NCBI GenBank assembly: GCA_012862575.1
Contig: BLSF01000012.1
Coordinates: 372,001 to 436,000 of the forward strand
Reading direction: 5' to 3'
Source of the DNA: Parietichytrium sp. I65-24A
Lineage: Eukaryota > Sar > Bigyra > Thraustochytrida > Thraustochytriidae
DNA: 64,000 nt
This document shows positions 6,089 through 63,464 of this stretch, piece after piece. The notes under the pieces were generated by a model. It did no database searches, was not told the DNA's origin, and saw only the letters and a list, made by a program, of their open reading frames with translations. Both the position numbers and the translations under genes were made by a program. Each line of letters starts with the position of its first letter. Within the stretch, counting starts at the first letter, position 1.

Positions 6089-6122
<34 letters not shown>

Positions 6123-23877: not shown

Positions 23878-26800
23878 TCATGGTAAAAAGACGCCGCTTC
23901 GCTCTTCGATCTGGCCGCGGCAGATTGGACACTGCTTTAGGTCCTTGCCACACTTCAAACATGAAGAGATGTGATGACAAGGACTGAACAACAGTTGCCG
24001 ATCCGCGTCTTGGCATATGACACACAAATGTCTCTCGGCTCCACCCGATCCTCCTGCTCCATTGTCCCCGCCTGATACGTTCAGGCCGAGCGAGTCTACA
24101 GCGGAAGGAGGAGTGCGTGAATTCGGGGCCGGAACCGGAGTTGAGTGGCCCGGGCTACTACTGCTTCTCCGGTCTCCAAAGTCAACAATCATTTTGTTTT
24201 GATCCTCTTTGTAGTTCCCTTCATAAACTTCCTTCGTCTTCAGCACCTCGCCTTTCATGACCGGTGAGTCCCTCAACTCCTTAGTTACATCACCGATAGC
24301 TTTTGGCTCCTTAATCGGACTTGGCGGCAGCTTGTGGTCGATCTTGCCATCCTGCTTCATACCCTGGGCTTCAAGAGACTCGAGGTCGTCGTACGTCTTG
24401 CGCCTCTTGTGGTCCGGAAGTGCGGGGTTGTCCTCCCCAAGCCCACCGCGCTTGATATTTTTGGCTGGCGCATTTCGATACATCCCAACCGGGTCGCTCT
24501 CGTCTACCGTCAGGTCGATACTCTCAGGCTTGAGGCCAATCGGACCTTGCGGCGGAGTCGCTTGACGGCTGGGAACTACATGTTGAGCGAGCCCCCCTAG
24601 CGACCCTTGCCGGACCGCTCTAGGGAGCGGACCGCGTCCTGGAGGAGCTATGTACCCGTTTCCCGACGGAGAGTCATCGTATGAATAGCCTACTGGAGTA
24701 AAGGCATCGGGGCCATAATCCCCAAACGAGTCAAACGGGTCATTGGAAGGATTCGAGTAGCCATTGTAACCAGAAGAATAACCTCGGTGTTGCGGCGCTG
24801 AGGATCCACCACTTGAGTAGCTGTAGCTTTGCCGGGATTGACTTGATGAGCTAGAGGCGCGCTGTACAGGTGCCGGATGCCCTTGACCAGAAGCAGGGCC
24901 AGCTGCCGAAGCCGAGTTTGTTGGCCCGACCGGATGTGTAAATGTTGATGCAGGCCGACCACCTTCCTGCTTGTAGCCGCCAGAATAGTTCGTGTTCCAA
25001 CCTGAGTGAGATCCGCCACTACCACCGCCTCCACTTCCGCCTCCGCTGCCACCGCCACCACTACCTCCTCCTCCTCCACCACCACCACCACCGCCGCCGC
25101 TGCTCCCACCACTACCACCACCGTGAGAGTACGATCTCGAAGGCGGATAGCCAGAGGCTCCCCCGTTTCCTCCACTTGGACCCGGGGGTCCTCCAGAGCG
25201 AGAGTTGTAGTAGTCAGACTGCTGCTGCTGCTGTTGTTGTTGCTGCTGTTGGCGCTGCTGCTGCTGTTGTTGTTGCTGCTGCTGATGGTTGGTTTGTTGC
25301 TGTTGCCCGCCCCCTGAATTGCCAGGATAAGGAGATGGGTCGCCGCCGGAACTTGGAGCATATGGGTCTGACTTTAGCGGGGGGTACGCGCCGGGGTGGT
25401 TGTAGGAGGAACCACCATGCTCCGCTTTGACTGGTCTGTACGAATCAGATGACATTGGATGTGATCCAGGTGGAGGGCCATGGGAGCGGTCCATTCCACT
25501 CGCTTCGCGCTTCATCCCACCCGGTGGACCGCCACCTCCGTAAGGCTCAGACTTGACCCCTTCAGGTCCGCCGCCAGAGGACGGGTGGAGGTTATTGTAT
25601 CCGGAAGGCGGAGGTCCGCTCTTATTGTACGGTGCACTGCCGGGCCGGCCACTCCCAGGGTATGTCCCTGAACCACCTGGACGGCCGCCCTGGGAACTAC
25701 CAGGATAGCCTCCTGAACCATCGCCTGCTCCAGGATATGAAGGTGAGTTGTAACCACGAGGAGGACCATACTTTGAATCAGGACCGATGGATCCTGCACC
25801 GCCCAGAGCGTTCTGCCCTGGGTAAGACATTCCAGGCGGTCCAGGCCTCCCGCTCGCACCAGGTGGCAGCGGACCGGAAGGATATCGAGTTGGCTTTGAA
25901 TTGGGGTAATTTGAGGGCTCCATCTTCATGTGTTGGCCAGACCCGTTCGGCCGAGGAGGCTGAGAACCAGATCCGGGGTATGCATTGGCTGGCTGCGAAG
26001 GTCCGGTGCTCCCCCCCGGGCCATTGCCCCGAGGCGGTGGGCTAACATGCCCACTACCACCCATGCGATCATAGCCAGGCGCGGTTTGATAAAAGTGCTG
26101 GGCAGGACCTCTTGGAGCAGATCCTGCACCTGGCGGTCCACCTTGCGAGGGTGGAGGGCCGTTCGGGTACGAATTTTGCGAGTATCCGATCGTTGGTCCG
26201 GACCCTGGTGCTGGCGAACTTCCCGTTCTGGGAGGATACATTGGCCGCGGCTGTCCAGCTTGCTGAGCTGCACTGGAGGACTCCGCCTTTTTCTTACTAA
26301 AGTCTAATAGCTTCTGATACAAAATGCAATCTTTGCAGCCTGGGGTGCATGGCAGTTGAGTTGGCTTTCTACGACTCAGCTCCCTTTGGTGTGTCACGCT
26401 CGGTTTAAACTCCGCACACAGCGGCTTAGTACAATTGGGCACATCACACCGGCAAGTGTGGTTCCACGCACGAATTTGCATTGCAAAAGAAGCATCCTGA
26501 GGCCGTTCTCCGGTGCCACTAGGCGCTTGGCCAGGTGGACCGCCGGGTCTACCAGACGCCACTCCGGGATTATTCCCACCCTGCATGGCGTAGTAACTCG
26601 CGGGCTTTCCCCCTTGCGAAGGTGGTCTAGAGCCGGGGTAACCCCCACCGGAATGCGGGCGTTGACCAGGTTCCGTAGTATTTCTGATCGGGGAAACACT
26701 AGGCCCATTGGTCCCGCCTGCTGCCCCGGGCGAGTATCGCGAGGGACCCCCCGGGCCTTGGACGCTGCGGATCTGACTACTGTACTGCTTGACCTTAGCC

Positions 26801-29400
26801 ATCGTTTCCGTAACGACCTGCTTGCCACACAGGCTCTGAAGCCTATTCATAATCCTGCTGATCAGATTTGTGCGCTCGCCGCCCGCAGCCGTGGACGGAT
26901 CCACCTTTTGCAGCTCCGTGATAACAGCGTCGATTTCACTATGTAGCTTCACATCTGTGCGCTTCTTCAGTTCATTGCTCATCACCTGGAACCTCGCGCT
27001 ACCCGCAGACGATTGTGTTCTGGGCATACCGCCCATTCCCATAGATCCAGGCGGACCTCGACCAGCAGCATTTTGAGGTACAGGAGGTCCGGGCGGCCGT
27101 GTCATTTCAGCTGGCGGAACTTTGCCGCCGCCCATCTGCGGCGGCCCTCCCATCTGCGGCGGATAACCCTGTGGTCGATAAGATGAAGGGTACGATTCCA
27201 TGTACGGCTGTCCAGCTGAATTGGGCGCACCAGGCCGAGGTGGTCCCCCGGGATGTCCCATATTTGGCGGGTATCTTGGATCCGATCCGTACCCTTGGTT
27301 GGGCCCCGGGCCACCTCCTGGACCAGAGGAGTTGGCTGTATTTGCGCCCCCGGCGCTGCGATATGGATCTGCACCTGGGGGGGTCTTCCTTGCAGCAGAG
27401 TTCGCAGCGGACGAAGAGCCTGGCCTGGCACCAGGTGGCATCGATGAAGAGGGTGGCGCGCCAGAAGACGGGTTTCCAGGAGGGCCACCAGTGCTGCGGT
27501 TCCCGGACCCGTTGTTGGGAGGATAACCGGATGAAGGCTGAGAAGAATAAGGGTATTGCGAGGACGGCGGCGCATCACCTTGAGACTGTGGCGGATAATT
27601 TGGCGGATACTTTCCTCCAGGAGGCTGAGAGCTGTATCCCGATGCACTGGGCCCTGGTGGATAACTTGATGACTGTGGCGGATATCCCCCTGGCCCTGAA
27701 CTCCCGCTGCCATAAGATCCTTGCGAGCTCCCTGGTTGCCCGGGAGGAGTTTGACGCACGGCGGCGTTTGATGGCGGGTAGTTTCCCACAGGCGCACCAG
27801 GAGGGGGCCCTCTTGGGGGACCGTAGCCTGGCATGGAATTTGGGCCAGGCGGACCGCCGGACGATGCGCCGGCGGAGGGGGGCGGAGGGTACTGTGAAGG
27901 TTGCTGTGACATTGGAGGTTGCTGAGAGGACCCAGGCCCTCTGGCTCCAGGCCCTTGACCGTCATTGTTGTAGTAGTACGGCTGGTCAAAGTATCCTGAG
28001 TTCTGATCATAGTATGGGTTCGACGAGCCCGGCTTGCCAGGTCCAGGAGGCCCGCCTGGGGGCTTTGGAGCGCCAGCACGTTGCTGCGGTGGTGGCGGCC
28101 CAGATTGTTGCCAATATGCATTATCGTAGTACGACTGCTGTGGATCATACGAGTCCATGGGAGCGCCGGTGCTCCCATCTGGGCCGTGAGGGTGATTCGA
28201 AGGCATCATCCCACCTTGCTGCGAGGAGTACCGCTGAGGCGGCGCGCCAGGCTGCCCTGGAGTACCAGAAGGAGGCGGTAGCCCCCGCGGAGGGCCCTGA
28301 CCCGGGGGCGGCTGATTCTTGCCAGATACGGGACCCGCGCTGCTCGGAACAGCAGGTCCACTAGAAGTTTTCCGGGCAGCTTTCCGCTTTGTGTTTGTGC
28401 TCTGACGCCGTAGTAGATTTCCGGGGCCACCAGCGCCAGGGTCTGACTGCGCGGATGGGTCTCCATATCCGGGAATGGAGCCGTACGTAGGAGAAGGAGT
28501 TCCCGCGTTGAAGCCTTTTGTAGTCGCGTTTTGTTTCTTGGTACCTCGAGAACCAGTGCTTTTGGTGCTCGCAGTTCGTCTCACTGGTTTGGTGGGGTTT
28601 CCATCGTTGCCTTTGGAAGATTTGCGTTTGTTCATCCCTTTTGTGGTGGGGGGAGCATTGCCTGCAACGGGAGGAGGTGGGGCGCCAAAGGAGGGAGGCC
28701 CGGGTGGGCCGCCCATGTCTAATGTGTCATATCCAGAGCTGTCGTTAAAGTCCAAAAGTCCCATAGGGTCGTCCATTTGAAAGTTGCGACCCATGGTTTG
28801 TTGTTGTAGCTGGCTATTGGCAGGGTTGCTATTTCCAGCAATGTTGGTGCTGTTGCTTCTACCCATAGGAACGCTATCTTTGCTGAGATTCTCATTCTTG
28901 TCAAGCCACTCTTCTACTTTGCCTCGCTGGCACCAGATCTTGGTGTTGTCTGTGCGCTGCTTGACCCAGCTCGCGAACGAACTCCTTGGAACTTCAATCA
29001 TGTCCGCGAGCACTGAAAGCGAGATCTTCTCTCTTGTCAAATACGTTTGAACACGGGCAATCAGTTCGTCCGAATCTCCAGAAGAGGGAGGAGCCCCAGA
29101 TGGGTCCATTGCTGCAGCGGAATCTGTGGACTTTTGGCGGCGCACAGTCTTTTTCTTTGGCGGCGCAGCAGGTGCAGCAGCAGCAGGTGGCGGTGGACCT
29201 CCCGCACTGATACTGGCATTAGCAGCGATAGGTGGAGGCCCAGAAGAGCCGAGAGGAGGCAAATTACTCTGCCCGCCTCCATTGTTGCCGGTGTCCGGCA
29301 TCAGGTCATTCATTCCGTCCAGATCAAGGTCGAACTCCGTCATGCCCTCGAAGTTATCGAGGTCGGCCATGAAGGACATGTCAAATTCATCGTTACTCAT
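23878..29400 (-). CDS. Large transcription-regulator-like protein: CUT-like, TAZ-like zinc and RING domains
   Basis: A 1840-residue single-exon protein starting at AAGATGA. Residues 1-40 are acidic and hydrophobic (Asp/Phe/Met/Leu), like an activation domain. Residues about 112-170 resemble a CUT/HTH DNA-binding domain (start ELIARVQTYLTREKIS, end VEEWLDKNENLS). Around 970-1035 a Cys/His cluster contains PNCTKPLC and, later, TPGCKDC. These resemble the ANCSLPSC and GGCPVC elements of the TAZ zinc finger of CBP/p300. Just upstream is a 70-residue helical segment. The C-terminus is a RING-HC finger, Cys1793 to Cys1827, spacing C-x2-C-x11-C-x-H-x3-C-x2-C-x6-C-x2-C, implying E3 ubiquitin ligase activity. 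The rest is Pro/Gly/Ser/Gln-rich, with poly-Gln and poly-Gly tracts near 25040-25300. A nuclear coactivator or ubiquitin ligase is inferred; the TAZ and CUT calls are tentative. Confidence 0.85.
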   Translation of the reverse strand: MSNDEFDMSFMADLDNFEGMTEFDLDLDGMNDLMPDTGNNGGGQSNLPPLGSSGPPPIAANASISAGGPPPPAAAAPAAPPKKKTVRRQKSTDSAAAMDPSGAPPSSGDSDELIARVQTYLTREKISLSVLADMIEVPRSSFASWVKQRTDNTKIWCQRGKVEEWLDKNENLSKDSVPMGRSNSTNIAGNSNPANSQLQQQTMGRNFQMDDPMGLLDFNDSSGYDTLDMGGPPGPPSFGAPPPPVAGNAPPTTKGMNKRKSSKGNDGNPTKPVRRTASTKSTGSRGTKKQNATTKGFNAGTPSPTYGSIPGYGDPSAQSDPGAGGPGNLLRRQSTNTKRKAARKTSSGPAVPSSAGPVSGKNQPPPGQGPPRGLPPPSGTPGQPGAPPQRYSSQQGGMMPSNHPHGPDGSTGAPMDSYDPQQSYYDNAYWQQSGPPPPQQRAGAPKPPGGPPGPGKPGSSNPYYDQNSGYFDQPYYYNNDGQGPGARGPGSSQQPPMSQQPSQYPPPPSAGASSGGPPGPNSMPGYGPPRGPPPGAPVGNYPPSNAAVRQTPPGQPGSSQGSYGSGSSGPGGYPPQSSSYPPGPSASGYSSQPPGGKYPPNYPPQSQGDAPPSSQYPYSSQPSSGYPPNNGSGNRSTGGPPGNPSSGAPPSSSMPPGARPGSSSAANSAARKTPPGADPYRSAGGANTANSSGPGGGPGPNQGYGSDPRYPPNMGHPGGPPRPGAPNSAGQPYMESYPSSYRPQGYPPQMGGPPQMGGGKVPPAEMTRPPGPPVPQNAAGRGPPGSMGMGGMPRTQSSAGSARFQVMSNELKKRTDVKLHSEIDAVITELQKVDPSTAAGGERTNLISRIMNRLQSLCGKQVVTETMAKVKQYSSQIRSVQGPGGPSRYSPGAAGGTNGPSVSPIRNTTEPGQRPHSGGGYPGSRPPSQGGKPASYYAMQGGNNPGVASGRPGGPPGQAPSGTGERPQDASFAMQIRAWNHTCRCDVPNCTKPLCAEFKPSVTHQRELSRRKPTQLPCTPGCKDCILYQKLLDFSKKKAESSSAAQQAGQPRPMYPPRTGSSPAPGSGPTIGYSQNSYPNGPPPSQGGPPGAGSAPRGPAQHFYQTAPGYDRMGGSGHVSPPPRGNGPGGSTGPSQPANAYPGSGSQPPRPNGSGQHMKMEPSNYPNSKPTRYPSGPLPPGASGRPGPPGMSYPGQNALGGAGSIGPDSKYGPPRGYNSPSYPGAGDGSGGYPGSSQGGRPGGSGTYPGSGRPGSAPYNKSGPPPSGYNNLHPSSGGGPEGVKSEPYGGGGPPGGMKREASGMDRSHGPPPGSHPMSSDSYRPVKAEHGGSSYNHPGAYPPLKSDPYAPSSGGDPSPYPGNSGGGQQQQTNHQQQQQQQQQQRQQQQQQQQQQQSDYYNSRSGGPPGPSGGNGGASGYPPSRSYSHGGGSGGSSGGGGGGGGGGGGSGGGGSGGGSGGGGSGGSHSGWNTNYSGGYKQEGGRPASTFTHPVGPTNSASAAGPASGQGHPAPVQRASSSSSQSRQSYSYSSGGSSAPQHRGYSSGYNGYSNPSNDPFDSFGDYGPDAFTPVGYSYDDSPSGNGYIAPPGRGPLPRAVRQGSLGGLAQHVVPSRQATPPQGPIGLKPESIDLTVDESDPVGMYRNAPAKNIKRGGLGEDNPALPDHKRRKTYDDLESLEAQGMKQDGKIDHKLPPSPIKEPKAIGDVTKELRDSPVMKGEVLKTKEVYEGNYKEDQNKMIVDFGDRRSSSSPGHSTPVPAPNSRTPPSAVDSLGLNVSGGDNGAGGSGGAERHLCVICQDADRQLLFSPCHHISSCLKCGKDLKQCPICRGQIEERSGVFLP
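25040..25300. repeat. CAG/CTG poly-Gln and GGN poly-Gly coding repeats
   Basis: Interrupted CTG/TTG runs (about 25219-25295) encode poly-Gln, and CCACCG/CCTCCT runs (about 25015-25125) encode poly-Gly on the minus strand of the RING gene. Confidence 0.9.
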
Positions 29401-40714: not shown

Positions 40715-43324
40715 CTACGAGGATGAAGAGCTATCCTCTTGCATTTTGCGTTTTTTGGCCTTTAGCTCTTCATTCATCTTCTCGTTCAGTGCCTTGTAGT
40801 CCACATTGGCAGAAGCAGTTGAGCGCCGGCTGCGCTTGCGTTGGCCGTCTGAGAGCGCGCCGTCGTCATCGGCCTGCTCAGCTCCGTCCTTTGCTGCACG
40901 TGCGCGCTCCTCTGCGGCTTTCGCTCTCCGCTCTCGAAGCTCCTCTTCGTGCTTCGCCTCCCAAGCCGAGTCAGCTTCGCTGTACAACTCTTTCTCAGAA
41001 GCCTCCGTCAGAGCCGAGACATGCGAGCAAACAGATCTCGCAAAAGGTGAGACGATTTGACCATCGATCTTGTAACCGCCTTCCAGCACCGACACGACCC
41101 TGCCCTTGCAACAAGAATTTGCAACTTTGACGAGCTCATTCGTGAGCCAGTAATAGTCGTGCTCCACGATTGAAAGATAGCCAAAGTTGATGTCATCAAA
41201 CTTGTGAGCATCAAACCCAGCAGAGATGATGATCAGATCGGGCGAAAACTTTGCCAGGGCGGGAAGAATGTGCTTTTGCCAGTTACTGCGCCATTCAAGC
41301 CGGCTCTTTGAATTTTGGCCCACATCAATGATCTGCGGCTCACCAGTACCTGATTTGTCAAACTCGCCGAAACCAAAGTTCTTACCGTCACTAGGATAGA
41401 ACATCCCTACTCGAGGTGGCGCGAGGGGGTCCGGGTTGAGACCGGGCACGCGTTTTCCGAAACCGTGCACTGATGCAAAAAAGACGTGCTCGTGATCTTC
41501 TTCGTTCAGCCACGGTTTGTAGGTAGGCGTGGCCAGCTTGATGTCACAAAATGGGGACTGAAACTCAGTCTTGTGAACGGACGGGTTGAGATTCTTAACA
41601 CAAGCCTCTGTACCGTTTCCGTGGTGCACGTCAAAATCGATTATTGCAACGTTTTTGATCCCTTGGTGGCGGTACACGTGCCTTGCATAAGCGGCGCCAA
41701 TCGCCGCGTTGCTTAGCAAGCAAAATCCATACGACGAGCCTGTAGGGTCTGCACTGCACGACACTACTCCACGTGGCCCAGCGTGATGGCCCGGCGGGCG
41801 CACTGCACAAAATGCGTTCCTGTGCTCATCTGAACACACTTTATCGATTGCGTCGCAGACTGCGCCAGCAGCAAACATGGCAGCTTCAAAACTCAGCCCT
41901 GAAATCGTAGTATCGGCATCCAGTTCGCCAAGCTCAGACTCGCCAAGTTGGGCGACAAAACTCTGAAGCTTCTCAACATAGGCGTAGTCGTGCACACGCA
42001 GAATGTCGCCCATATTCGCCCTTGTAGCCTTCTGCCAATCCAGTCGGCCGTTCAGCCGGTTGCAGCGCAGGATGCCGAGGTTGTCGTCTAGAAGAACCTT
42101 CAGGCGGTTCACGTTTTCTGGTGGTACGCTAGCCATTGTGCGGCGGGACGTGTGCTTTGGTTTGCATGTGTAGTGCTTGGAGCAAACTTCGTGTGACAAG
42201 ACGAGGGTTTTCCGTTTCTTCACTTCGCCATCAGAATCAGTTTTATTAATCAGGCGCAAGACGTTTGAGGACCCGCAAAGCCGCGCCCAATCTGCAGCTG
42301 TTCGACCACGAGCGTCCTTCGCATTCTCCAACTCCGGGTATGTATCGATCAAAAGTTTGTAACCCTCAACAAAGTCGTGTTTGGCAGCAAAGTGAAGTGG
42401 GGTCATCTCGAATGGGTTGGTTCGCTTTGCTGCGACTTTTCCGTGTTTGTCGGAGAGTATACGTTTCAAGACATCTGCACTGCCGACCCTGCAAGCCACA
42501 TGAACACAATTCAGCCCCTCCACATCCTGAAGAACCCATTGCTCATTCACCTTCATCTTCTTCAGAATCAGATTAAGGGCAGCATCAAATTTGAATTCTG
42601 CGCAGAGATGCAACACTGTGCGACCTAGATCGTCACGGCCAAACAGCTCCACGGGCTTCTCGATGAGATCGAGCTTTGGCTCAAAGTCGAGGACATATTC
42701 AAGCGCCTGGAGAGCAAATTCTTGCTGCGCAGGAACAGAACCTACGCTAAGAATCAGATGACAGAGAGGAGCATTGTTGCACCGCGTGTTTAGACCTCCT
42801 CCAGCTTGCAACAGCACACGCATGCACTCGAACTGACGGTGAAGCACCGCAACGTGGAGTGGTGTACAACCTTCAGGGTCCCTTCGCCCAAGTGACCTAT
42901 TCACATTGTCGCGCTCTAACATTTGCAGCGTCAATTTCTTCTGCTCCGCAGAAAGCTCGCTTTTGCCCTCCAGCTCCTTACGCTTCTCTAGGTACACGCT
43001 GTTGGACTGCCTCATCACCAACACTTCTTTGACTTTGGCAGAATTTCCAGCTTCAACCAAATTGTGCAAAACGAATGGACTTCCGTCTTCTGAATCAGAG
43101 TCGGAGCTGTCCGAGTCCTCTTCCTGCATCGTTCTCGCCACTTGCGTGTTGAACGAACGCTCCTTGTCATCCATCTCGTCATCGTCACCTGCCGCTCCAG
43201 CCTCATCATCATCGTCGTCATCATCATCATCGTTGTCCTCGCCCCAATCGTCATTCATTCCGAGGTCTTTCTCATTTTTCTCAGTCCCCATTACGACATC
43301 ATCTTTCTCCTCGTCTTTCCCCAT
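40715..43324 (-). CDS. Class II histone deacetylase with N-terminal ankyrin repeats
   Basis: An 869-residue nuclear enzyme predicted to remove acetyl groups from lysines. I start at 43324 (AAGATGG). An in-frame ATG at 43471 would lie inside a likely 5' UTR intron (see the promoter region). Residues 1-80 are very acidic. About residues 85-350 contain ankyrin repeats (for example EGCTPLHVAVLHRQFECMRV, LGRTVLHLCAEF, MTPLHFAAKHDFVEGYKLL). The deacetylase domain spans about 370-790. The catalytic His pair is in RPPGHHAG (about 509), zinc ligands are in DFDVHHGNG (about 563) and AGFDAH (about 703), and the active-site Tyr is in LEGGYKID (about 748), so it should be active. The C-terminus is a charged helix with nuclear-localisation-like GQRKRSRRS and KAKKRK. 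Ankyrin repeats probably recruit partners. It is head-to-head with the nucleoporin gene. Confidence 0.95.
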   Translation of the reverse strand: MGKDEEKDDVVMGTEKNEKDLGMNDDWGEDNDDDDDDDDDEAGAAGDDDEMDDKERSFNTQVARTMQEEDSDSSDSDSEDGSPFVLHNLVEAGNSAKVKEVLVMRQSNSVYLEKRKELEGKSELSAEQKKLTLQMLERDNVNRSLGRRDPEGCTPLHVAVLHRQFECMRVLLQAGGGLNTRCNNAPLCHLILSVGSVPAQQEFALQALEYVLDFEPKLDLIEKPVELFGRDDLGRTVLHLCAEFKFDAALNLILKKMKVNEQWVLQDVEGLNCVHVACRVGSADVLKRILSDKHGKVAAKRTNPFEMTPLHFAAKHDFVEGYKLLIDTYPELENAKDARGRTAADWARLCGSSNVLRLINKTDSDGEVKKRKTLVLSHEVCSKHYTCKPKHTSRRTMASVPPENVNRLKVLLDDNLGILRCNRLNGRLDWQKATRANMGDILRVHDYAYVEKLQSFVAQLGESELGELDADTTISGLSFEAAMFAAGAVCDAIDKVCSDEHRNAFCAVRPPGHHAGPRGVVSCSADPTGSSYGFCLLSNAAIGAAYARHVYRHQGIKNVAIIDFDVHHGNGTEACVKNLNPSVHKTEFQSPFCDIKLATPTYKPWLNEEDHEHVFFASVHGFGKRVPGLNPDPLAPPRVGMFYPSDGKNFGFGEFDKSGTGEPQIIDVGQNSKSRLEWRSNWQKHILPALAKFSPDLIIISAGFDAHKFDDINFGYLSIVEHDYYWLTNELVKVANSCCKGRVVSVLEGGYKIDGQIVSPFARSVCSHVSALTEASEKELYSEADSAWEAKHEEELRERRAKAAEERARAAKDGAEQADDDGALSDGQRKRSRRSTASANVDYKALNEKMNEELKAKKRKMQEDSSSSS

Positions 43325-43510
43325 CTTGACTTTGCTTTCTATCCTTTGCCTTGGTCTCCTTCCAGTGTTCCCTTCTCCAAGCTGAAAAATCCCGCAGCCA
43401 AGAAGCGCCGCACCAGGCTCAGTGAGCTCCTTTCCCCTGCATTTCCATTCGTGGATTTCGCACACCGACATTCGCCATTTCCAGCATCAATCAAACAAAC
43501 GAACAAACAG

Positions 43511-44839: not shown

Positions 44840-47800
44840 ATGTTTAACTTTGGTTCCCAGGAGAACAAGGGCGCCACGTCCACGTCGGGGTTCTCGTTCG
44901 GCTCTTCTAGTACGGAGACCAAAGAGCAAAGTGAAAAAAAAAGTGAAGGCTTTTCGTTCGGCCAAACGAGTTCCCCAAAGCTGGGATCGGCGGGATCGGC
45001 GCAAAGTGGCGGCTTCTCATTCGGAAAACCGAGCTCGCCAAAGTCAGGATCGTCAGGATCGGCACAAAATGAAGGCTTTTCGTTCGGCCAAATGAGTTCT
45101 CCAAAGCTGGAGTCGTCTCCTGGTGGTGGACTTTCGTTCGGGAAGAAACTGAGCTCTCCGAAACTGGATGCAGCAGAGCAGGGCACTCCAAAGAAGAGAA
45201 ATTCGTTCTCGTTGGGGCCTGCGGAGGCGGACGCTGAAGCTGGGGCCGTTCTCAGCACGCCGCGCAAGTCAGCCTCGCCAGCCGCTCCAGCCAAGGCCAT
45301 GTCTGCGCTGGTCAGTTCGGCGCCGAGTGGCCCACGGAAAGCGGGATTAGAGTCAGACGGCGTGGACTGGCTTGCCACGGAAGCGGTGGCGTTCACGTAT
45401 AGTTCCGTGGAGCTCGGAGGGTTTGGTGTTCGGGATTCGGGGTTTACGGAGGACCTGCACAAGTACTTTCCGCTGTCGATTCTTCAGCTGCTTGACGTCT
45501 TCGGGCAGCGGAGTAATAGCGTGACGAAAGACTCACGCGAAAGCGCCGCCTTGCAAGGCGCGTTCAAAGCTAGAATCATCCAGCAGCCCTTGCATTCTAG
45601 ACAGGCCTTCATTACGGTGGTAAGTGAGACCCTTGGGGTCCCGGAGGCCGGGTGCGAATCGTTGGTGAATCGACTCGTCGCCTCCTTGCTAGAAACTCAG
45701 ATAGGAGAAAAAAAGGCCGCAACTCGCAAACAAGAAATCGTCAAAAGGCTCACAAAAGACAGCAAGAAACATCAAGCGGCAAAGCGGGCTCTCGATGAGG
45801 CATATTCTTTCGCAGAGCTTGACGCAATTGACACAGTTGCAAGCCTGAGCTTGAGTGATGAGAAATTCGAAGAGGTGCTAAACAACGACCTGGAGCTCGC
45901 GCGCGAAAACTGCCAAGAGATTTCCTTCGGAGTGCCAATGTCAGACTCTTTGCTTGGTAAGGTGGTGCATAGATTCCACGATGAGCTGTGTGCCATTCTG
46001 CAGGCCATCCTTCTGATGGTCCGCTGCGCCGCGGACGTGGACAACCTTCACGAGAGCCAAGACGACTGGCACGAGTTTACCTTGGACTTCATCAGGGAGC
46101 ATGAAGAGGAGCTGGAGGACAAAATCTTCTCCCTGCTGCCTCGCAGCTTATCCACCAAGGAGGAGTCGCTGCTTTTGCGCATCTTGTTTTACCTCCCAGT
46201 TCAGAACAAGAGAAACCTTTTGCTGCGCATGCTCGCATTCGAATCAAGCTATATGAGCAAGATCCCATGGGCTGCTCGCATTATTCAATTGCTCTCAAAA
46301 TTGGAGGAGGTTTCTTTCGACTCCGTTTTAATGGACGCCATCACATCCTACTCCTCGTCGGCCGCTCAGCTCGCGTGGGCAGTGTTCGCATCGGATACGC
46401 AAAAGCTGGACGAGATGTACTTTGCTGGCATACAAGAGTTGCTTCCACTCGCTAGGAGTGAAAACTTTTCATTTGTCTTGGAGGAATTTGCAAGTCACAC
46501 GATTCAAACACTGAAGCAACTCGAGTACGAACTTGCAAGTCAGTCTGATTGTAGCAACTTGGCTTTTATAGCAGGGGCGGCATTTCGGAACCGTGAAGAC
46601 GCGTGCAATTCGGTCTGGGAGGACCTGATGCACCCCATGCACACCCTCTTGGCAAGCGTATCTAGATACCCGAAAGTTCTTTTGCAGCTGTTGGGGGACC
46701 TCGTGGCAGGACCCCAGAGTGCAGGCATCGTGCTGAAGTACATCGCTGGCTTTGAAGACCACTCTGTTTTATTTGCCTCCCTGGCCCTCTTGGAGAAGCT
46801 TGCCTGCCACCTGAGCAAAGTCACAATTGAGCAGTATGAATTCTTCCCCTCGGCCAGGGACCTGATTCGCCACTTCACGACGGACCCCGGCTTAATTCGT
46901 GTACTGAAATTCTTCTCGCAAAAGTTTCCACAGCACTTGCTGACTGTGTTGGTGAACGAGTCTGACGGGTCCACGTTCACCATCTTGGAAAGTCTCAAGG
47001 AGTCCCTCGAGTCGGAAAATGCTCAGGGGGACTATTCTCGGAGCCTACTCCCTGGCCTGCAGCTTATTTCGGAGCTGTTGAGTCAGGTTATCAAGGAGCA
47101 CGCCTCGAGCGAGTTGCGAATCGCCTTTGCATCAAAGTCAGGCAATAGGTCACTGGACAAAGATCAGCTTTTGGGAAGCTTGGAGATCCTTGGTTTCACT
47201 GCCGGTATCGATTCTGCGACTTTTCAACGAATCAGCACTGACGGAATGATCGACTATGAGAAATTTGACGCTCTGTTGCAGAGCGAGGAAGGCGGTTTCT
47301 TCAGAGTTCTGTCCTTGTCGTTGCAGAGCCGGCGTTCGCAAATACAAGATTTCGTTTACCAAGCCATAAAATTCGTTCGGGAAGTGTATTGCTCGCACGT
47401 TGGATGGCGGTACTCCAAGCTCGAACAGAGCCACAAAATTGGAATGGCGACCACAAGTATTATTCGCGGATGTATCTCCGCGTCAACTACGCTCGGCGAT
47501 GTCCGATCTAAAGTGATCGAGGACTTTTTGAACGACGCTTCGACTCAAGATGCCCTCATCACAAACATTCTCTCTCCGGTTGGGCGGAGTAGGACTGCAC
47601 AGATGCTCGTGTACGAGTCCCTTGACCTACTAAATTCGATTTTGCAGGAGAATGCCTTCGAACAGCAAAAAATTGACCTGTTTTGCCGCCAGAATCTGGC
47701 TGCTGGCGTGGCCATCCATATTGGCTTTCCGAAGACGCAGTCGATGCTTCCATGCATCTACCCGATTCCAAAACTTGCCGCCAAAGTACTCGAGAGCTTT

Positions 47801-50800
47801 GTTGTGGCCACCGAAATTGCAAAGCTGAAGCATCCTGGGATCAAAACTCCTTCCATCGTCGCAATGCTTGCCGAAGCGCCCAATCTACAGGAGGACGTCG
47901 CTAACCTGATTCAAAACCAGGAGATATCTGTCGTGTCTCTGCTCAGTACGGCCCTGGAGCTTGAGCCCGGTTTTGCCGCGATGTTGTTTCAGCGAGAAGA
48001 GACTCTCAAGAACGTCATGGACATTTTAAACGATCGCAAAAACTTCGAATTGCAACCGCGACTCTACTGTGCAGCTTTGGAGTTTGTTGGGGTGTTGTGG
48101 TACAAGGGTTTTGTGGGAACCATAGACCGCCTGCAGGAGATTTACCCCGACTTTTGGAAGATCATCTCTCACTCTTTGATGGCGGATGTTGAGCCTGTGG
48201 AGCTTGAGCCCGGAAATGTCGAGCTTATCACCAAGCAGTGCTACCAAGCGAACATCCGGTCGTGGTCCCTGGAGATCATGACGAACGAGCTCGAGCAGAA
48301 CGGGCTACAATCGAAAACGTTTGCTGATCGCCTCCGCGGCTTTCAAGAAAAGCAAAGGGATCAGGCCTGGCTCGAACAGTACCCAGTAATTATCTTTAGC
48401 CCAGAGGAACAGCAGAGACTCCAGGAAGTTGCCAAGCGAATCCGTGTCGACCTGGAAAAATTTGTTGTGCAACCACTCTTCAGCCTTGCAAATAACGGCG
48501 GGCAGTCACAGTCGTATGGATCTGACACAAGCAAGTTTGACAGTGGTACTCAGCGGCGCTCGCAGGGCGGATATGAGCACTTCATCAATCTGAAAGATTC
48601 CACGGGGCTAATTCTGGCAGAACGGAGGGTGTATAGGTTTGGGCCGAGCTATATTTATAACACGAGCCTACTCGAGAAAATGTTTGCTGACAGCCCGGAT
48701 TTGATCAGCGAAGCTCGGTATAACAACTGCCTGATGTCCCTCTCAGATGCACAATTGCTTCTACTGAGGTCATGGAAGGTGTACATGGAGACGCGGTGCT
48801 TGATCATGTGGGAAAACGACTCTACGGCTCTTGGGCAAGGAGCAAACCTGTGCAGCCCCAAGAATGGCCCGAGCGTGCTGTCAACCCCTGGTGGTCGGGA
48901 GAGCAATGGACAGAGAGGTCGATTTTTGTCAACCCTAGAGTCGAAGCACTTGGGCGACGCCACTTCGTTTATGCTTGTTGCCAAATTGGCGTCTCATTTG
49001 CAAGAGACTAAGCTGGACGCGCTTTTTAGCGATCATCAGCAGATTTTCCTCGTCGAAATAGCAAGCATGTTTGTCTCTATGCTGCACTTTAAGACATTTA
49101 CAAAAAACAATGCTCCTCAAGAGGTTACCGACCGCGAGGTTGAAACTGGAATCTGCGACCCGATCGTTTCCGCTGCGCCAACCATCTCCTTCTGCCGAAG
49201 ATCAAAGATGAACCGGAGTGACATGCTAGTTCTTCACAACACCAACCCCGAGTCACCTGGTGTGATCCAACTGATTGAAGGGGTGTCTTCATGCCTCTTC
49301 AAGGTTTTTCAGATGAAAGGAGCTGACCAATTTACTCAGCAAATTATGGTGCCTCTGCTGACGGGGCTTCTAATGTTGTTTCAGATCGCCGAAGACTTTG
49401 AAACGACTGAGAGCAACGCGAAGGTGCTGGAAAATTGCAGAGCACAGACCCTTGATCTTGTAGCCAAAGTGCTGCGAACAAATGTTGAGGCCACAGAGAT
49501 CTATGACATCTGCGTCTCCCTTCTCAATCTAATTCTAGCGCAATACAGCAAGTCGGAGCCCACATTGGGGTCCCTTATTTCTCAGGACACTCTTCGCATT
49601 TTGCACCGGGCTTATGTGCGCCACTCAGAGAAAATCTCACGCCTCTATCGCGAGCAAGAGGAGTTGTCCTCCTGGCTTGAGCGCAATGGCTTGAGCGACC
49701 TCCGCGTGAAGGTTCTCGGGGCCTATGGTGTGGAAGGTTCCCTTGATAGCATGGGAGAAGCTGATAAAGGCGGTAACCCTCGCTTCAATTCCCCAGTGGG
49801 TCGGCCAAACCCGAGCGAACTGGAGTACACTATTCGGCTCCGTGACATTTCCAAGCAACTGGGGTACAAAGGCCTTGATGTGGGAGTGAAAAACCGCTCT
49901 TCGCGAAACTATCGCGATATTGTATCGAAAGGCGCCCTTTTGAGCGGAGGAGAGGACGGGCTTGTCGAGATTAGTGTAGTTCATCTCCTGTTCGACTATG
50001 GCGTGACCAGCATTGCCGCGCTGACCTCACTTGACCAACAGGCGATGGAGAACATGGGCATTTACAAGCAATCGGATAGGAGGCGGCTGCTCGCTCTGAT
50101 CAAGCAGCAACAGCAGCAAGGTAGCCGGGATGGAGACGGCGTCGCGGATTCTTCGTCGTCTCAAGGAGGAGGGGAAGGTACTTCCTTCACCGGACCAAAC
50201 AAGAGACAGAGAACTCACTTTTCTCGTGAAACCGGCATGCAAAAGCAGCTCGAGATGAATCTGGGGCTAATGCGGATGCAAATTACTCTGCAAGCGTTGA
50301 ACTCAGCAGTACGCGCAAATAAGAATGCAGTTGGGCCGCATCTTGCAAGCCTGCAAGTGATTCAACGTTTTGCCATTGATCCTCTCCTGCGTGTTGTTGC
50401 AGGTGACAAGCCCATCACGGGCAGCTGGGGAAACGGCAACCGAATTCTATTTCGGGGCTACACTGTTCGTGGTGATCGCGATCCTGGTCACCAGATTTGG
50501 TGCGAAGCGCTGCGCCTGGTGTCAACGCTTCTGAGCTCTTCCAAATCGACCAAGGAGAATAAAAATGTGGATCAGGCCATAGAGTTTTTGAGTGCGCATA
50601 GAGGGTGCGTTATGAGCTGTTTGTCAGCCTTCAGCTCAGAAAACTCGGTGCTCACCATCGGTAGTCTGGAGGAAATCGACCAGGTGGTGAACTTTCTGCG
50701 TGAGCTGTCAAATCACACGCAGCGGTGGAGGCTCCAATCCAACTTGTACGGCCCAGTTTTAAGTGCTGCTTGGTATCTAATCGATGACCTGCTTTACTTG

Positions 50801-52939
50801 AACGACAAGAATCGGCGTTCGTGCTTCTTGGAAGATTTTGTCAAGACTTTCTTCTTTCAGCATTCAAAGCCTGTGCCGCGCCTGTGCATGGCGACTCGGC
50901 CTGTGACCGCCCGCGAGCATAGCCAAGATCGCAGACCTGTGATGGAAATGCTTCAAAAGAGACCAATTAGTGGCACGCCTCGAACGGCTTCGATTATTCG
51001 CACGAGCAGCATGACAGCCTCCGCCGATAGTAGCGAGGATATTCTTTCGAGCCCTCCGCCGGCGGTTTCTGGGAGCGGGCGTAAGATGCGGTCGACTTCG
51101 TCGAGCTCGCTCATGTCTGGAATGTCGCCTCTTGCGGAAGGGGATATAACGTTTTTGCACGTAAACATCGAGTTTCGTCTGTGCAAAATTATTCAAAAGT
51201 TGCTTTCAGTCTTCCAGAATCGCCAAGTGGTCAAGGTTTCCAAGCAGTTAGAAATGGATGAACACACTGGACAAGTTCTCCCAACAAGGTACTGGCTGCG
51301 CGCCACGATTCCGTTTCCGCTCTCTGAGGTGGCGGACGCAAATCGATGGACTGGTTTTGCAAACGCGGCTGGAAACTCAGTTGCAAGTGGACCCAGCTCT
51401 GCATTGGCTCTCCATGACAGCAAGTCAACTCCAAGCAACCAGCGGACGTCTTCCAGAACTGGGGCTCACAACGCCTGGGGGCGGCTCCCAAGTGCCCCAG
51501 CGCCAACCTTGAATACCCTGATAGCTCTCATAGGCTATGCGCGCTATCGTATCCATCTTTGCGCGCATGCAGAGTCAGCACTTCCAGACGACGTTGGGAT
51601 CGGAAACGCCGGGTCCAAGCAGTGGCGTGTGTTGCTCGGGTTGCTCATCACCAATGCCTTACAGTTGGCGATGGTTTCCCTAGACTTGGAGTTGCATGAG
51701 CAAGAAAGGCGGCTTGCGGAGTTGCAGGCTGGTACGCACACCAAGAAGACGGCGACACCGTCTAGCAGCAGCAAGAGACACATCCCGACCACGCTGTACA
51801 ATACTCTTGTGAACGCGCAGGTCAAAGTGAGGGAGGGAGTCGCCAAGTTTGTTGACTGTTTTGATCGGTTAGACATGGACCACGAAGTGCTGCGTTTACT
51901 TGGCGAGCGGATCGACTCCGCGATCCACCGTTTGTTGCCCGCAGAAGTTGCTCACGCACCGCAAGGACAAGGCAACGAAGTGGCCCCTCTTGCGCCGGCT
52001 CGCGGGCTTCGCGAGCAAAGTAGGGTGGTGCACTTGGGCCGTAAGGAAAGCCCTCAAATGCTGGTTCTTTGGCTTCACGGACAGGCATTGAATGGCGCTT
52101 CATCATGGGAGCCAATCTTTCGCAGCTTTGATATGCCAAACGTCAAATTCATCATTCCAGAGCTTGATAGCTACTATCAGCAGCATGTTGGCGGAGTTGG
52201 TGGTGAATCTGAGCAAGGCGTTTTGTGCTGGTACCGCGAAGGAGCGTCGGTTCCACCCAATGGGGCGGGTGGTCAAACGCTGGGAACTGAGCTTTTGCAG
52301 TCAAACTTGGACAAAATTGCAGACCTCCCTAATGCACGACAGGAACTTGTTCGACTCTTAGAGAGTTGCCAGGTTGCTGTACAGAAGCAGCAAATTGGCA
52401 TGACAAGGCATCTGAAAGAGTTGTTTGCTCTCTTAGCGTCGAAACGCGAGCCTGTCGACCAGTTGAAGAAGTTAGTGACGGAGGTCGTTGGCCTTGTGAG
52501 AGCAGAGGTCAACAAAGGCATGGATCCCAGAAACATTTTTATTGGCGGCTATCAGATCGGTGGAAGTGTGGCGCTCTTATCAAGTCTGATTTTGAGTCTC
52601 GATGAGCAGACAATTCAAATTGGTGGGGTGCTTGGAATCAATGCTCACCTCGCGCTGGCCAACGATGTCGCGGCCATGATCGAGCGAGCGATAGTAGAAA
52701 AGAAAAAGCTTTCATTTCCGGGCCGTTTACTGCTTCGAAATGGTGGCGACGATAGCGTTATTTCCCCAGTGTGGTCAGAGCTCATTGCAAGGGCCCTGTA
52801 CAACTGTGGCGCACCGGTGGACTTTGCTTGCAATCCAGGCCTGGACTATACGTCATGGGATGTAACTCAGATGCAGCCCCTCTGGGAGCTCTTGAAAAGC
52901 ACAGAGTCGGAGCTTGAATCCATGCGGCTGGAGGAGTAG
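44840..52939 (+). CDS. Giant FG-repeat nucleoporin, Nup188/Nup205-like, with C-terminal pseudo-thioesterase domain
   Basis: A 2699-residue single-exon protein. Start is the ATG at 44840 (AAAGATG); the frame extends 46 codons upstream only to a GTG. Residues 1-110 carry FxFG repeats (GFSFG, GLSFG), each followed by SSPK, a CDK-type site. About residues 180-2300 are all-helical with no known motif. Segments such as GWRYSKLEQSHKIGMATTSI resemble the Nup188/Nup205 scaffold family of the pore inner ring, but the match is by eye. Possible insertions are an EF-hand-like pair (about 770-820) and a SAM-like segment (about 1710-1760). From about 2400 to the end is an alpha/beta hydrolase of acyl-protein-thioesterase type (LVLWLHGQALNGASSWEPIF, NIFIGGYQIGG). 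The nucleophile Ser of GFSQGG is Gln2572 and the catalytic His position is Tyr2670, while Asp2637/2638 remain, so it is probably inactive. Known members are 1700-2000 residues. Confidence 0.82.
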   Translation: MFNFGSQENKGATSTSGFSFGSSSTETKEQSEKKSEGFSFGQTSSPKLGSAGSAQSGGFSFGKPSSPKSGSSGSAQNEGFSFGQMSSPKLESSPGGGLSFGKKLSSPKLDAAEQGTPKKRNSFSLGPAEADAEAGAVLSTPRKSASPAAPAKAMSALVSSAPSGPRKAGLESDGVDWLATEAVAFTYSSVELGGFGVRDSGFTEDLHKYFPLSILQLLDVFGQRSNSVTKDSRESAALQGAFKARIIQQPLHSRQAFITVVSETLGVPEAGCESLVNRLVASLLETQIGEKKAATRKQEIVKRLTKDSKKHQAAKRALDEAYSFAELDAIDTVASLSLSDEKFEEVLNNDLELARENCQEISFGVPMSDSLLGKVVHRFHDELCAILQAILLMVRCAADVDNLHESQDDWHEFTLDFIREHEEELEDKIFSLLPRSLSTKEESLLLRILFYLPVQNKRNLLLRMLAFESSYMSKIPWAARIIQLLSKLEEVSFDSVLMDAITSYSSSAAQLAWAVFASDTQKLDEMYFAGIQELLPLARSENFSFVLEEFASHTIQTLKQLEYELASQSDCSNLAFIAGAAFRNREDACNSVWEDLMHPMHTLLASVSRYPKVLLQLLGDLVAGPQSAGIVLKYIAGFEDHSVLFASLALLEKLACHLSKVTIEQYEFFPSARDLIRHFTTDPGLIRVLKFFSQKFPQHLLTVLVNESDGSTFTILESLKESLESENAQGDYSRSLLPGLQLISELLSQVIKEHASSELRIAFASKSGNRSLDKDQLLGSLEILGFTAGIDSATFQRISTDGMIDYEKFDALLQSEEGGFFRVLSLSLQSRRSQIQDFVYQAIKFVREVYCSHVGWRYSKLEQSHKIGMATTSIIRGCISASTTLGDVRSKVIEDFLNDASTQDALITNILSPVGRSRTAQMLVYESLDLLNSILQENAFEQQKIDLFCRQNLAAGVAIHIGFPKTQSMLPCIYPIPKLAAKVLESFVVATEIAKLKHPGIKTPSIVAMLAEAPNLQEDVANLIQNQEISVVSLLSTALELEPGFAAMLFQREETLKNVMDILNDRKNFELQPRLYCAALEFVGVLWYKGFVGTIDRLQEIYPDFWKIISHSLMADVEPVELEPGNVELITKQCYQANIRSWSLEIMTNELEQNGLQSKTFADRLRGFQEKQRDQAWLEQYPVIIFSPEEQQRLQEVAKRIRVDLEKFVVQPLFSLANNGGQSQSYGSDTSKFDSGTQRRSQGGYEHFINLKDSTGLILAERRVYRFGPSYIYNTSLLEKMFADSPDLISEARYNNCLMSLSDAQLLLLRSWKVYMETRCLIMWENDSTALGQGANLCSPKNGPSVLSTPGGRESNGQRGRFLSTLESKHLGDATSFMLVAKLASHLQETKLDALFSDHQQIFLVEIASMFVSMLHFKTFTKNNAPQEVTDREVETGICDPIVSAAPTISFCRRSKMNRSDMLVLHNTNPESPGVIQLIEGVSSCLFKVFQMKGADQFTQQIMVPLLTGLLMLFQIAEDFETTESNAKVLENCRAQTLDLVAKVLRTNVEATEIYDICVSLLNLILAQYSKSEPTLGSLISQDTLRILHRAYVRHSEKISRLYREQEELSSWLERNGLSDLRVKVLGAYGVEGSLDSMGEADKGGNPRFNSPVGRPNPSELEYTIRLRDISKQLGYKGLDVGVKNRSSRNYRDIVSKGALLSGGEDGLVEISVVHLLFDYGVTSIAALTSLDQQAMENMGIYKQSDRRRLLALIKQQQQQGSRDGDGVADSSSSQGGGEGTSFTGPNKRQRTHFSRETGMQKQLEMNLGLMRMQITLQALNSAVRANKNAVGPHLASLQVIQRFAIDPLLRVVAGDKPITGSWGNGNRILFRGYTVRGDRDPGHQIWCEALRLVSTLLSSSKSTKENKNVDQAIEFLSAHRGCVMSCLSAFSSENSVLTIGSLEEIDQVVNFLRELSNHTQRWRLQSNLYGPVLSAAWYLIDDLLYLNDKNRRSCFLEDFVKTFFFQHSKPVPRLCMATRPVTAREHSQDRRPVMEMLQKRPISGTPRTASIIRTSSMTASADSSEDILSSPPPAVSGSGRKMRSTSSSSLMSGMSPLAEGDITFLHVNIEFRLCKIIQKLLSVFQNRQVVKVSKQLEMDEHTGQVLPTRYWLRATIPFPLSEVADANRWTGFANAAGNSVASGPSSALALHDSKSTPSNQRTSSRTGAHNAWGRLPSAPAPTLNTLIALIGYARYRIHLCAHAESALPDDVGIGNAGSKQWRVLLGLLITNALQLAMVSLDLELHEQERRLAELQAGTHTKKTATPSSSSKRHIPTTLYNTLVNAQVKVREGVAKFVDCFDRLDMDHEVLRLLGERIDSAIHRLLPAEVAHAPQGQGNEVAPLAPARGLREQSRVVHLGRKESPQMLVLWLHGQALNGASSWEPIFRSFDMPNVKFIIPELDSYYQQHVGGVGGESEQGVLCWYREGASVPPNGAGGQTLGTELLQSNLDKIADLPNARQELVRLLESCQVAVQKQQIGMTRHLKELFALLASKREPVDQLKKLVTEVVGLVRAEVNKGMDPRNIFIGGYQIGGSVALLSSLILSLDEQTIQIGGVLGINAHLALANDVAAMIERAIVEKKKLSFPGRLLLRNGGDDSVISPVWSELIARALYNCGAPVDFACNPGLDYTSWDVTQMQPLWELLKSTESELESMRLEE

Positions 52940-53037: not shown

Positions 53038-54021
53038 CTATGGTTCGCTGGTTTCGCGGCAGATGCACTTTGGGTGGGCGAGGGGTTTGGAAACAGCGAA
53101 AACATCCGAAACAGCAGCATACTGGGTCGAATATCTCATACTATCTAGGTTTTTCAAGTTGCTTCGAGAGCACAGAACCTGCGCGACCTTCTGCAGTGCC
53201 AACCCTGCATAGACAGCATTAGATCCTGCCAAAGTTGCCCCGTTGGCTTCTCGGGACGCATATACTTCATCAATGTGGCCTGCGGATGCGTTTGACCTTT
53301 CGTCACACGCAAGACAGCTGACGAGTGCGCCGTCTTCTTCGCTGCTTTGTTCGGTGAAACAACGTAGCCATCCGGGCTCTTTCGTTTTGCGGGGCACGCA
53401 CAAATCCATGTACGGGAGGCTTGCGGAGACACACCATTCGCTGACCGCAAGACGCCCTTGGAGACTATTTACACAGCAGATCACCAAATCCGGCTTGCGA
53501 CTGAACATTGTGCCCAGAGAATAGAGACCAGCTTCATTTTTGCTGACGTCGATGTCCCTCGCATGGACAGTCACAGCGCTATTCAGTATTTCGATGGCCC
53601 TCTTCATAGCCCTTGTCTTTTGAAGCCCCACATGCTTTCTGCGAAACGAGGTTGTCGCCAGATGCTCCAGTGCCACCTTGCCACGGTCAACTAATCCGAT
53701 ACAGCCGACGCCCGCGCGCCCGAGCCCTTCCGCTACGAACGAGCCTGCGCCTCCGACTCCAATTACGATCACCACTTTATTTGCAAGGGGGCTTTCCATT
53801 GCGTCGCTACCCCGGGACGCATTTGACTTTTGGGCAATCGCGAATGCGTTAAGCTTCTCATTACCAAATTTTTGTGCTGCTCGCTTCGGCTCGCACAAAA
53901 GTCGAGCCGCGACTTCAAGCTCGCCCACTTGCGACTGAATGCGTCGCACCCAGTGCACGACCTCTTCAGGGTTTGCGGTCTCCCACTTCGGCGTGTCCAA
54001 GAGAGAGCTGTCATCGCCCAT
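53038..54021 (-). CDS. UBA5-like E1/ThiF-fold protein lacking the catalytic cysteine
   Basis: A 327-residue ThiF-fold protein ending 98 bp from the convergent nucleoporin gene. UBA5 activates the ubiquitin-like modifier UFM1 with ATP. Residues 80-150 match its Rossmann core: VVIVIGVGGAGSFVAEGL with Gly88-x-Gly90-Gly-x-Gly93, then LVDRGKV and HVGLQK. PDLVICCVNSL (177-187) matches UBA5's DLVLSCVD strand. Zinc-ligand candidates are Cys236/Cys239 (SCLAC) and Cys319/Cys321 (KCIC, spaced closer than in UBA5). The region aligned with UBA5's active-site VCAAS reads EANGATLAG here, with no Cys. The Asn and Arg of UBA5's NMNR are also replaced (HLATT). The C-terminal UFC1/UFM1-binding tail is absent. 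It is either a pseudo-E1 or a diverged relative with another chemistry. Start context is AGAATGG. Confidence 0.78.
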   Translation of the reverse strand: MGDDSSLLDTPKWETANPEEVVHWVRRIQSQVGELEVAARLLCEPKRAAQKFGNEKLNAFAIAQKSNASRGSDAMESPLANKVVIVIGVGGAGSFVAEGLGRAGVGCIGLVDRGKVALEHLATTSFRRKHVGLQKTRAMKRAIEILNSAVTVHARDIDVSKNEAGLYSLGTMFSRKPDLVICCVNSLQGRLAVSEWCVSASLPYMDLCVPRKTKEPGWLRCFTEQSSEEDGALVSCLACDERSNASAGHIDEVYASREANGATLAGSNAVYAGLALQKVAQVLCSRSNLKNLDSMRYSTQYAAVSDVFAVSKPLAHPKCICRETSEP

Positions 54022-61960: not shown

Positions 61961-63464
61961 CTTGGTCGTTACACTTTCTTGTGTCGGTCCTCGCCGCGTA
62001 CACTTTCTGTTCCGTTTCTTGTCTATTCTTCCAGTCACTCACTCACTCTCTCATCACAGTTTCCAGCCACCCACTTTCGCGCTCATTGAAGCCTTAACCT
62101 CCTTATCTTCAGCTAGAATTACTGCCACCGCTTAAGGAACTTTGGTGGAGGAGAAGAGGTAGGCGTGGGCTACAGTTTACCATGGAAAATTGTATTAGTA
62201 AATTATCCAATTGTGGCGTAGCGGTCGCGCAGTTCGAGAAGAAAGCACTATATTGTTCGTGTACTGGGGAATGTTCTCTGGGAACCGAGGCCTTCCACAA
62301 ACAAGGTGGGTACTGATAGGACCAAGTGCACACGGCAGGTGGGTGAACGTCTACGCCATAGATAGATGATATGGTAGGATCGAGGGGAGCCGCGCCAATG
62401 TGGTTCGCACCCCCTGAGAGTGCCAATCTTTCCTTTCTTCAACAATTTGTCAACTTTCACTGTCAGTTCAAAACAGAATTCACATATCTGATGACCGCGT
62501 TGCGTCCTGTTCTCATCGCCTTTTCTTAAAAGTTGGGTGTCGGGTTGGTCAAAATAAGTTTTGGAGGGTACTCACTGTCAGCATCATCGTTTGCTGTTAG
62601 ACCAGTCAGAACCTGCCCTGCTAAAGGTTGCGATGCATGGCAGTGACTTGGGATAGAATCAGACGATCGGAAAGTTGATGCTGGAGATCACGCCTTCTTT
62701 GTTACTGACTGACGACAGTGTATTGGGTTGAGATTGGCTGATTGATTGACCAATGTGCGTGGGTGGGTTCACGGCTATGTCTCTTTTTATTTATCTCAGC
62801 ATACTTGCAAAGAGTTCTGAATTCTGGCAATCTGGCAATCTGAATCGGCAGCCTGTTGACAGCGAGTTCTGGCATCTCTGGCGTGGCTCTCTGAACCCCC
62901 AGGATCCCCCAGGCGTGGGCAATCGCATAGTTGACAGTCTGTGTTACCTGCGTCAGCCATCTATGCCACAGATCGCATCGTCAACCAGCTCACGGATTGC
63001 GCTTGGAGGTCTTGGAGGGCTGAAAACGTGAGTACTCACCGTCAGAACTTCTCGCTTTGCACGATTTGTTTTGGTAGTAGCAATGGCTTTTATTCACGTC
63101 ATGGCGAGCGAGCGCGTGCCACTACGAGCCGTCCCTCTTGATCCCCCTGCCCCCGCAATCAGAGCTATCCTAAGGCAGCACCAGCATCTACTCATACCCA
63201 TCCCCCACTATTCCGCCCCCCTCACGCCTTTCGCCTGGGTTCCTTTTGTTCGCCGCTCCTGGGTGTGCACCTGTAGTCCTGAATAGAGCTTCACCCTAAA
63301 GAGACCTCGTCAGAGCGTCTTTCGGGGCAAGATTACCCGAGCTTCAGCGAACCGTGCGAAACCTGGAGGCAGGGAAGCGGAGGGCTATGGTAAACCCTAT
63401 CACCGCACGTGTGAAGCCGAAGACTATCGCGGAGTAGCCACCGACTACGGAGCCCAGGGAGAAA

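Follow-up and report, generated by a model that had tools for sequence, protein, structure and literature searches.

Our results indicate that the open frame at 44840..52939 (+) of the window, the 64,000-nucleotide stretch of DNA that was analyzed, likely encodes a Nup188-type scaffold of the inner ring of the nuclear pore, which begins with an FxFG head and ends with a triad-deficient acyl-protein thioesterase (APT) tail that would act as a non-hydrolyzing docking module. The window corresponds to positions 372001-436000 of contig C12 in a genome of 42.5 Mb and 172 contigs; the whole finding is based on this one genome, and the single frame is read from the DNA sequence.

The open frame and its FG head

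The frame starts at ATG 44840 (it is open in frame from 44702 if GTG is counted), its stop ends at 52939, and it encodes a probable Nup188 orthologue of 2,699 aa with an FG head and a pseudo-APT tail. An earlier note had claimed that FxFG repeats, a scaffold and a C-terminal hydrolase region are joined in a single frame, and the 2,699 codons indeed run uninterrupted, with zero internal stops and zero N, while the remaining two plus-strand frames of the same stretch contain 105 and 112 stops. Third-position GC, measured per 200-codon block, ranged from 0.50 to 0.65, with the minimum of 0.50 at residues 2401-2600, inside the tail. The sequence GTRAGT occurs once in the gene, at 45620.

The FG head occupies residues 1-103 (44840..45148, +) and contains FNFG at residue 2, FSFG at residues 18, 38, 59 and 80, and LSFG at residue 98. 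The FSFG motifs are spaced 20-21 residues apart, and the DNA beneath them forms a repeat with a period of 63 bases (2.8 copies, 75% matches). FG nucleoporins are recognized by clustered FxFG or GLFG motifs, and the head carries five FxFG in residues 1-110; in 20,000 shuffles, the mean FxFG count was 0.17 and the maximum was 3, with none reaching 5. A looser count gave six FG in the head, which was equalled in 70 of the 20,000 shuffles, and it is therefore the FxFG pattern that bears the weight. The Pfam FG-repeat model PF13634 did not match the head, though it found the heads of other proteins in this genome. Scanning of the first 200 residues also revealed six S/T-P-K/R motifs (residues 45, 66, 87, 106, 116 and 140; 44972..45265, +), which we take to be possible mitotic-kinase sites.

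Three other frames of the window have domain arrangements that we record here. A histone deacetylase domain is preceded by ankyrin repeats within the single frame at 40715-43471 (-), and an adenylate/guanylate cyclase domain is fused to a GAF domain at 6360-8753 (+). The low-complexity frame at 23878-29400 (-), of 1,840 aa, ends in a C-terminal RING finger, and a Cys/His cluster further in was seen by eye.

The scaffold and a second giant nucleoporin

The scaffold region extends from about residue 171 to residue 2367 (45350..51940, +), with spacers of few hydrophobic residues near 1751-1800 and 2051-2100. A phmmer search of the PDB matched Xenopus Nup188 (7wkk_B) with an E-value of 4.4e-4 for the whole protein and 9.4e-5 for residues 1501-2380, and human Nup188 with E-values of 0.053 and 0.011, respectively. 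The matching segment, residues 1887-1965 (50498..50734, +), aligned with residues 1388-1463 of the Xenopus protein and 1393-1468 of the human protein, and 7wkk_B provides a significant match to a solved member of the Nup188/Nup205 scaffold superfamily. Residues 1501-2380 gave three PDB matches, two to Nup188 and one, at E 0.12, to a cytochrome.

Towards the N-terminus, residues 829-933 (47324..47638, +) matched the model of Nup188 N-terminal subdomain III (PF21093) below its cut-off, at 16-18.9 of 24.3 bits, and residues 824-911 weakly matched 9sob_B, 'Nucleoporin (DUF3414)', at E 0.22. The order along the chain is that of Nup188, with the N-terminal subdomain model preceding the C-terminal match. 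The Pfam models Nup188_N and Nup188_C (PF10487 and PF18378) had no match in the whole genome, and likewise none in 14 control genomes. A single-sequence structure model of residues 1786-2380 was helical, at very low confidence (mean pLDDT 38.1). The solid E-value for scaffold homology thus covers about 80 residues, to which one sub-threshold stretch is added.

Some other resemblances in the scaffold were considered. A SAM-like stretch at residues 1718-1756 (49991..50107, +) scored at best 18.7 of the 23 bits of the Pfam cut-off, and it was retained as a possible insert. The EF-hand-like look of residues ~790-865 was dropped after neither Pfam nor the PDB gave a match, and isolated matches of residues 373-443 to pRN1 primase (E 0.016) and of another stretch to TOM1L1 (E 0.048) were regarded as chance. 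A search of viral contigs for relatives of the scaffold found none.

The same genome encodes a second giant of this class. The 2,278-aa frame L012, at 889-7725 (-) of contig C32, scored 110.6 bits with the Nup192/205 model PF11894, its sole significant PDB match was Nup205 (E 5.1e-10), and from its sequence it reads clearly as a separate Nup205/Nup192 orthologue. Its N-terminus contains five GSLFG motifs and one GSFFG and matches Nucleoporin_FG at 49.4 bits; FG heads are present on both giants and differ in type. Elsewhere in the genome, Nup98 was found on contig C9 (PF04096, 123.7 bits), and FG-rich frames are present on contigs C2, C9 and C21. As to lineage markers, searches for light-harvesting families had no match in this genome, and those for PfaA had none above the cut-off. 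On contig C26, a 2,531-aa frame, possibly another giant FG protein, has an FG-repeat match below cut-off (23 of 32.2 bits) at 62131-62376 (-).

Because a separate Nup205 is present, the scaffold of the window protein is probably Nup188, an assignment that draws on the PDB matches together with elimination. Among solved structures, Nup188 was the single significant relative, which favors the nucleoporin scaffold proposed in the earlier note; the choice that it had left among Nup188, Nup205 and Nup192 is probably narrowed by the PDB match and the separate Nup205, even though the Pfam models of Nup188 were below cut-off or absent.

Could the gene be something else, either in its family or in its extent? 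A second Nup205-type protein in place of Nup188 would fit with the contact of the Nup192 model PF11894 with residues 1880-1953 (E 0.0085), and also with the scores of PF21093, the Nup188 subdomain III model, which gave 25.4 bits, above its cut-off, on the Nup205 L012 and 18.9 bits on the window protein. However, the nucleoporins that the C-terminal part matched in the PDB were all Nup188, the only significant match of L012 was Nup205, and a BLASTP comparison of the window giant with L012 found nothing (best E 1.5); we consider this reading improbable. That the apparent fusion represents two genes or a mis-assembly is, in our judgment, very improbable. The linker between scaffold and tail, of about 26 residues (2368-2393; 51941..52018, +), is in frame and stop-free. 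An in-frame methionine, Met2346, is a possible start of a separate tail gene or protein, and a start at Met2407, near the junction, would remove the first hydrolase strand. However, the junction keeps the same frame throughout, without N and without a stop, and only 98 bases separate the stop of the frame from the next one, a convergent ThiF-family gene at 53038-54021 (-). From base composition alone, 312 codons would run free of stops with a probability of ~6e-7, a figure to be read with the fact that a real separate gene would be equally stop-free. A single gene for a Nup188-type scaffold is the preferred reading.

A thioesterase-like tail without the catalytic serine and histidine

The pseudo-APT domain spans residues ~2394-2699 (52019..52936, +) and includes a low-confidence insert at 2450-2538. 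The Abhydrolase_2 profile, with a cut-off of 23 bits, matched the whole protein at 36.2 bits (E 7.4e-9) and its last 399 aa at 43.2 bits (E 5.4e-11); the tail combines a profile match above the cut-off with a predicted alpha/beta-hydrolase fold. Among the 19 PDB matches of residues 2386-2699 with E-values up to 1, 16 were carboxylesterases, APTs, SOBER1 or LYPLAL1 (best E 1.6e-4), and the remaining three were homing-endonuclease entries (E 0.59-0.99).

An AlphaFold2 model of residues 2331-2699, built from an alignment with five bacterial APTs, showed strand-helix alternation in the order expected for the fold. Its mean pLDDT was 57.6 and its pTM 0.60, with a pLDDT of at least 70 in 138 of the 369 residues; averages of ten-residue blocks were 56-89 within 2391-2450 and 2541-2699, whereas confidence fell below 50 in residues 2331-2388 and 2450-2538. 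Foldseek returned 573 matches with E-values up to 0.001, and of the best 50, the first 31 were APT1, APT2, SOBER1, LYPLAL1 and bacterial carboxylesterases, with E-values from 1.3e-11, TM-scores of 0.64-0.78 by target and 0.42-0.47 by query, and rmsd values mostly of ~6. Comparison with LYPLA1/2 had been proposed in advance as the check on this domain: the structure is predicted to be an alpha/beta hydrolase, with human APT1 and APT2 as the top matches (TM by target 0.67-0.75, rmsd 5.8-6.5). The bacterial APT rows in the alignment bias this model toward the APT fold; the Abhydrolase_2 profile match is independent of those rows.

The motif order of APTs, LHG (2412-2414), GGYQIGG (2569-2575) and GGDDS (2635-2639), was found at the positions claimed in the earlier note. 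Catalytic columns were read from alignments with three relatives from the same genome and five bacterial ones, and both proposed replacements appeared in them: Gln2572 (52553..52555, +) aligns with the nucleophile Ser, GGYQIGG standing against GGFSQGG, and Tyr2670 (52847..52849, +) with the catalytic His. Asp2638 (52751..52753, +), in the catalytic Asp column, is retained, and Ile2573 takes the place of the Gln next to the nucleophile Ser. With the Ser of GxSxGG and the catalytic His absent and the Asp present, the tail is most likely catalytically dead, as judged by the missing residues.

When the genome was searched with Pfam, five matches emerged, namely the tail, three stand-alone APT-like proteins (L002, L003 and L004) and a lipase-like one (L006, with GHSMGG). 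Ser, Asp and His are all intact in the three stand-alone proteins; L004, a 372-aa frame on contig C65, is extended at its N-terminus and retains GGFSQGG unaltered. When genome contigs were scanned with the stand-alone APTs rather than with the tail, five of 174 stretches were confirmed. BLASTP of the tail against seven APTs, a comparison from which L015 was excluded as near-identical to L014, gave L002 of its own genome at E 8.7e-6, with the bacterial L014 close behind (2.1e-5). On viral contigs, the tail had two pattern matches and the APT alignment 27, none of which was confirmed.

Two further roles for the tail were weighed against docking. In one of these, the tail would be a ligand reader, whose pocket binds an acyl chain or the S-acylated peptide of a pore-membrane protein and through which the scaffold would recognize lipid-modified partners or a lipid state. 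Fold, LHG motif and Asp all persist in the tail while the nucleophile and the His are exchanged, and GID1, a dead-hydrolase hormone receptor that binds its ligand, offers an analogy. Furthermore, the Ser119Ala form of APT1 with palmitic acid (6qgo) was among the top fold matches, suggesting, as far as the accessible description of that entry goes, that an APT without its Ser is able to hold the acid. However, the Trp-containing stretch conserved in APTs is unrecognizable in the tail, where ~90 low-confidence residues are inserted; this insert, together with the Ile in place of the Gln after the Ser, means that the pocket may be closed. A literature search on acylated nucleoporins gave nothing on both terms among the matches listed, and we hold the ligand-reader role to be possible, albeit unlikely. 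Retention of Asp2638 and of the hydrolase fold might also suggest that the tail remains enzymatically active through residues other than Ser and His. However, the His column holds Tyr, the Gln after the nucleophile is Ile, and we know of no Gln nucleophile in the alpha/beta-hydrolase fold; continued catalysis seems to us extremely improbable. Docking to a neighbor is ranked as the likeliest role of the tail, and the reading of a lipid group is the bolder one.

Proposed role and comparison with known systems

In the proposed arrangement, the scaffold would be an inner-ring neighbor of the separate Nup205. Its FxFG head would contribute filaments to the channel or grip neighboring scaffolds, and it may also fold back onto its own chain. 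The tail, with no hydrolysis left, would offer a folded surface onto which a partner docks, most plausibly a neighboring pore protein or a pore-membrane protein, and it was probably acquired when an APT gene fused in frame to the scaffold gene, followed by decay of the triad. Binding of FG repeats by both Nup188 and Nup192 of fungi is reported in the available part of the source (Andersen et al. 2013, PMC3679522), and in the yeast pom34 nup188 double mutant some FG Nups are lost from pores, as cited in the accessible text of PMC2951903. The double-mutant phenotype agrees with a working link to pore-membrane proteins.

The tail shares the Abhydrolase_2 profile, the fold and the motif order with APT1/APT2, SOBER1 and LYPLAL1, and differs from them in the replacement of the Ser, the His and the post-Ser Gln and in its fusion to a nucleoporin. 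Neuroligins, NDRG and GID1 are non-catalytic alpha/beta hydrolases that serve in binding; the tail resembles them in a retained fold and, on the reading proposed here, in lost catalysis and use in recognition, whereas they belong to separate hydrolase families and act elsewhere in the cell.

The window protein resembles Nup188 of Xenopus, human and Myceliophthora as a giant scaffold, in the match at residues 1887-1965 and in the presence of Nup205 alongside it in its genome. In the available text on Myceliophthora Nup188, the C-terminal helical arc ends the chain at residue 1827, and the N-terminal part of Nup188 carries an SH3-like insert (PMC3679522). Compared with Nup188 of other species, as described in such partial sources, the window protein adds the FG head, the SAM-like stretch and the hydrolase-fold tail. 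Tetrahymena Nup308 (Iwamoto et al. 2017, PMC5450191), 2,675 aa long, is a Nup205 orthologue that carries a GLFG region at its N-terminus. The accessible text of that paper calls a GLFG-headed Nup205 unique to Tetrahymena, states that Nup188 was not found there, and describes Nup205 and Nup188 of other species as being without FG repeats. Nup308 is likewise a giant inner-ring scaffold with an N-terminal FG region, and it resembles L012 most; unlike the window protein, it is of the Nup205 type and from a ciliate, and the available text does not mention a hydrolase domain. On this description, L012 adds a second FG-headed Nup205 to the one known from Tetrahymena, Nup308.

The earlier note knew of no pore protein with a thioesterase domain, and in the literature searched, no hydrolase or thioesterase domain on Nup188 was found among the matches listed. 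For FG repeats, a giant scaffold nucleoporin that carries them has a precedent in Tetrahymena Nup308, on the accessible account of that protein. An FG-headed Nup188 was likewise not found among the matches listed in the literature searched, in the parts of those sources that were available.

A bolder combination, which we regard as unlikely, would make Nup188 a reader of lipid modification: it would have gained a once de-acylating domain whose catalysis was then lost and whose acyl pocket, kept or reshaped, holds S-acylated pore-membrane proteins. This combination would also have the inner ring build part of the permeability barrier through the FG heads of both giants. The available text of PMC8421043 presents the inner ring as well conserved. 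If the preferred reading of a docking tail is true, an FG-headed, pseudo-enzyme-tailed Nup188 together with an FG-bearing Nup205 would mean that both ends of even such inner-ring hubs are open to new modules. Altogether, the finding opens to test the idea that scaffold Nups may themselves supply barrier filaments and docking surfaces.
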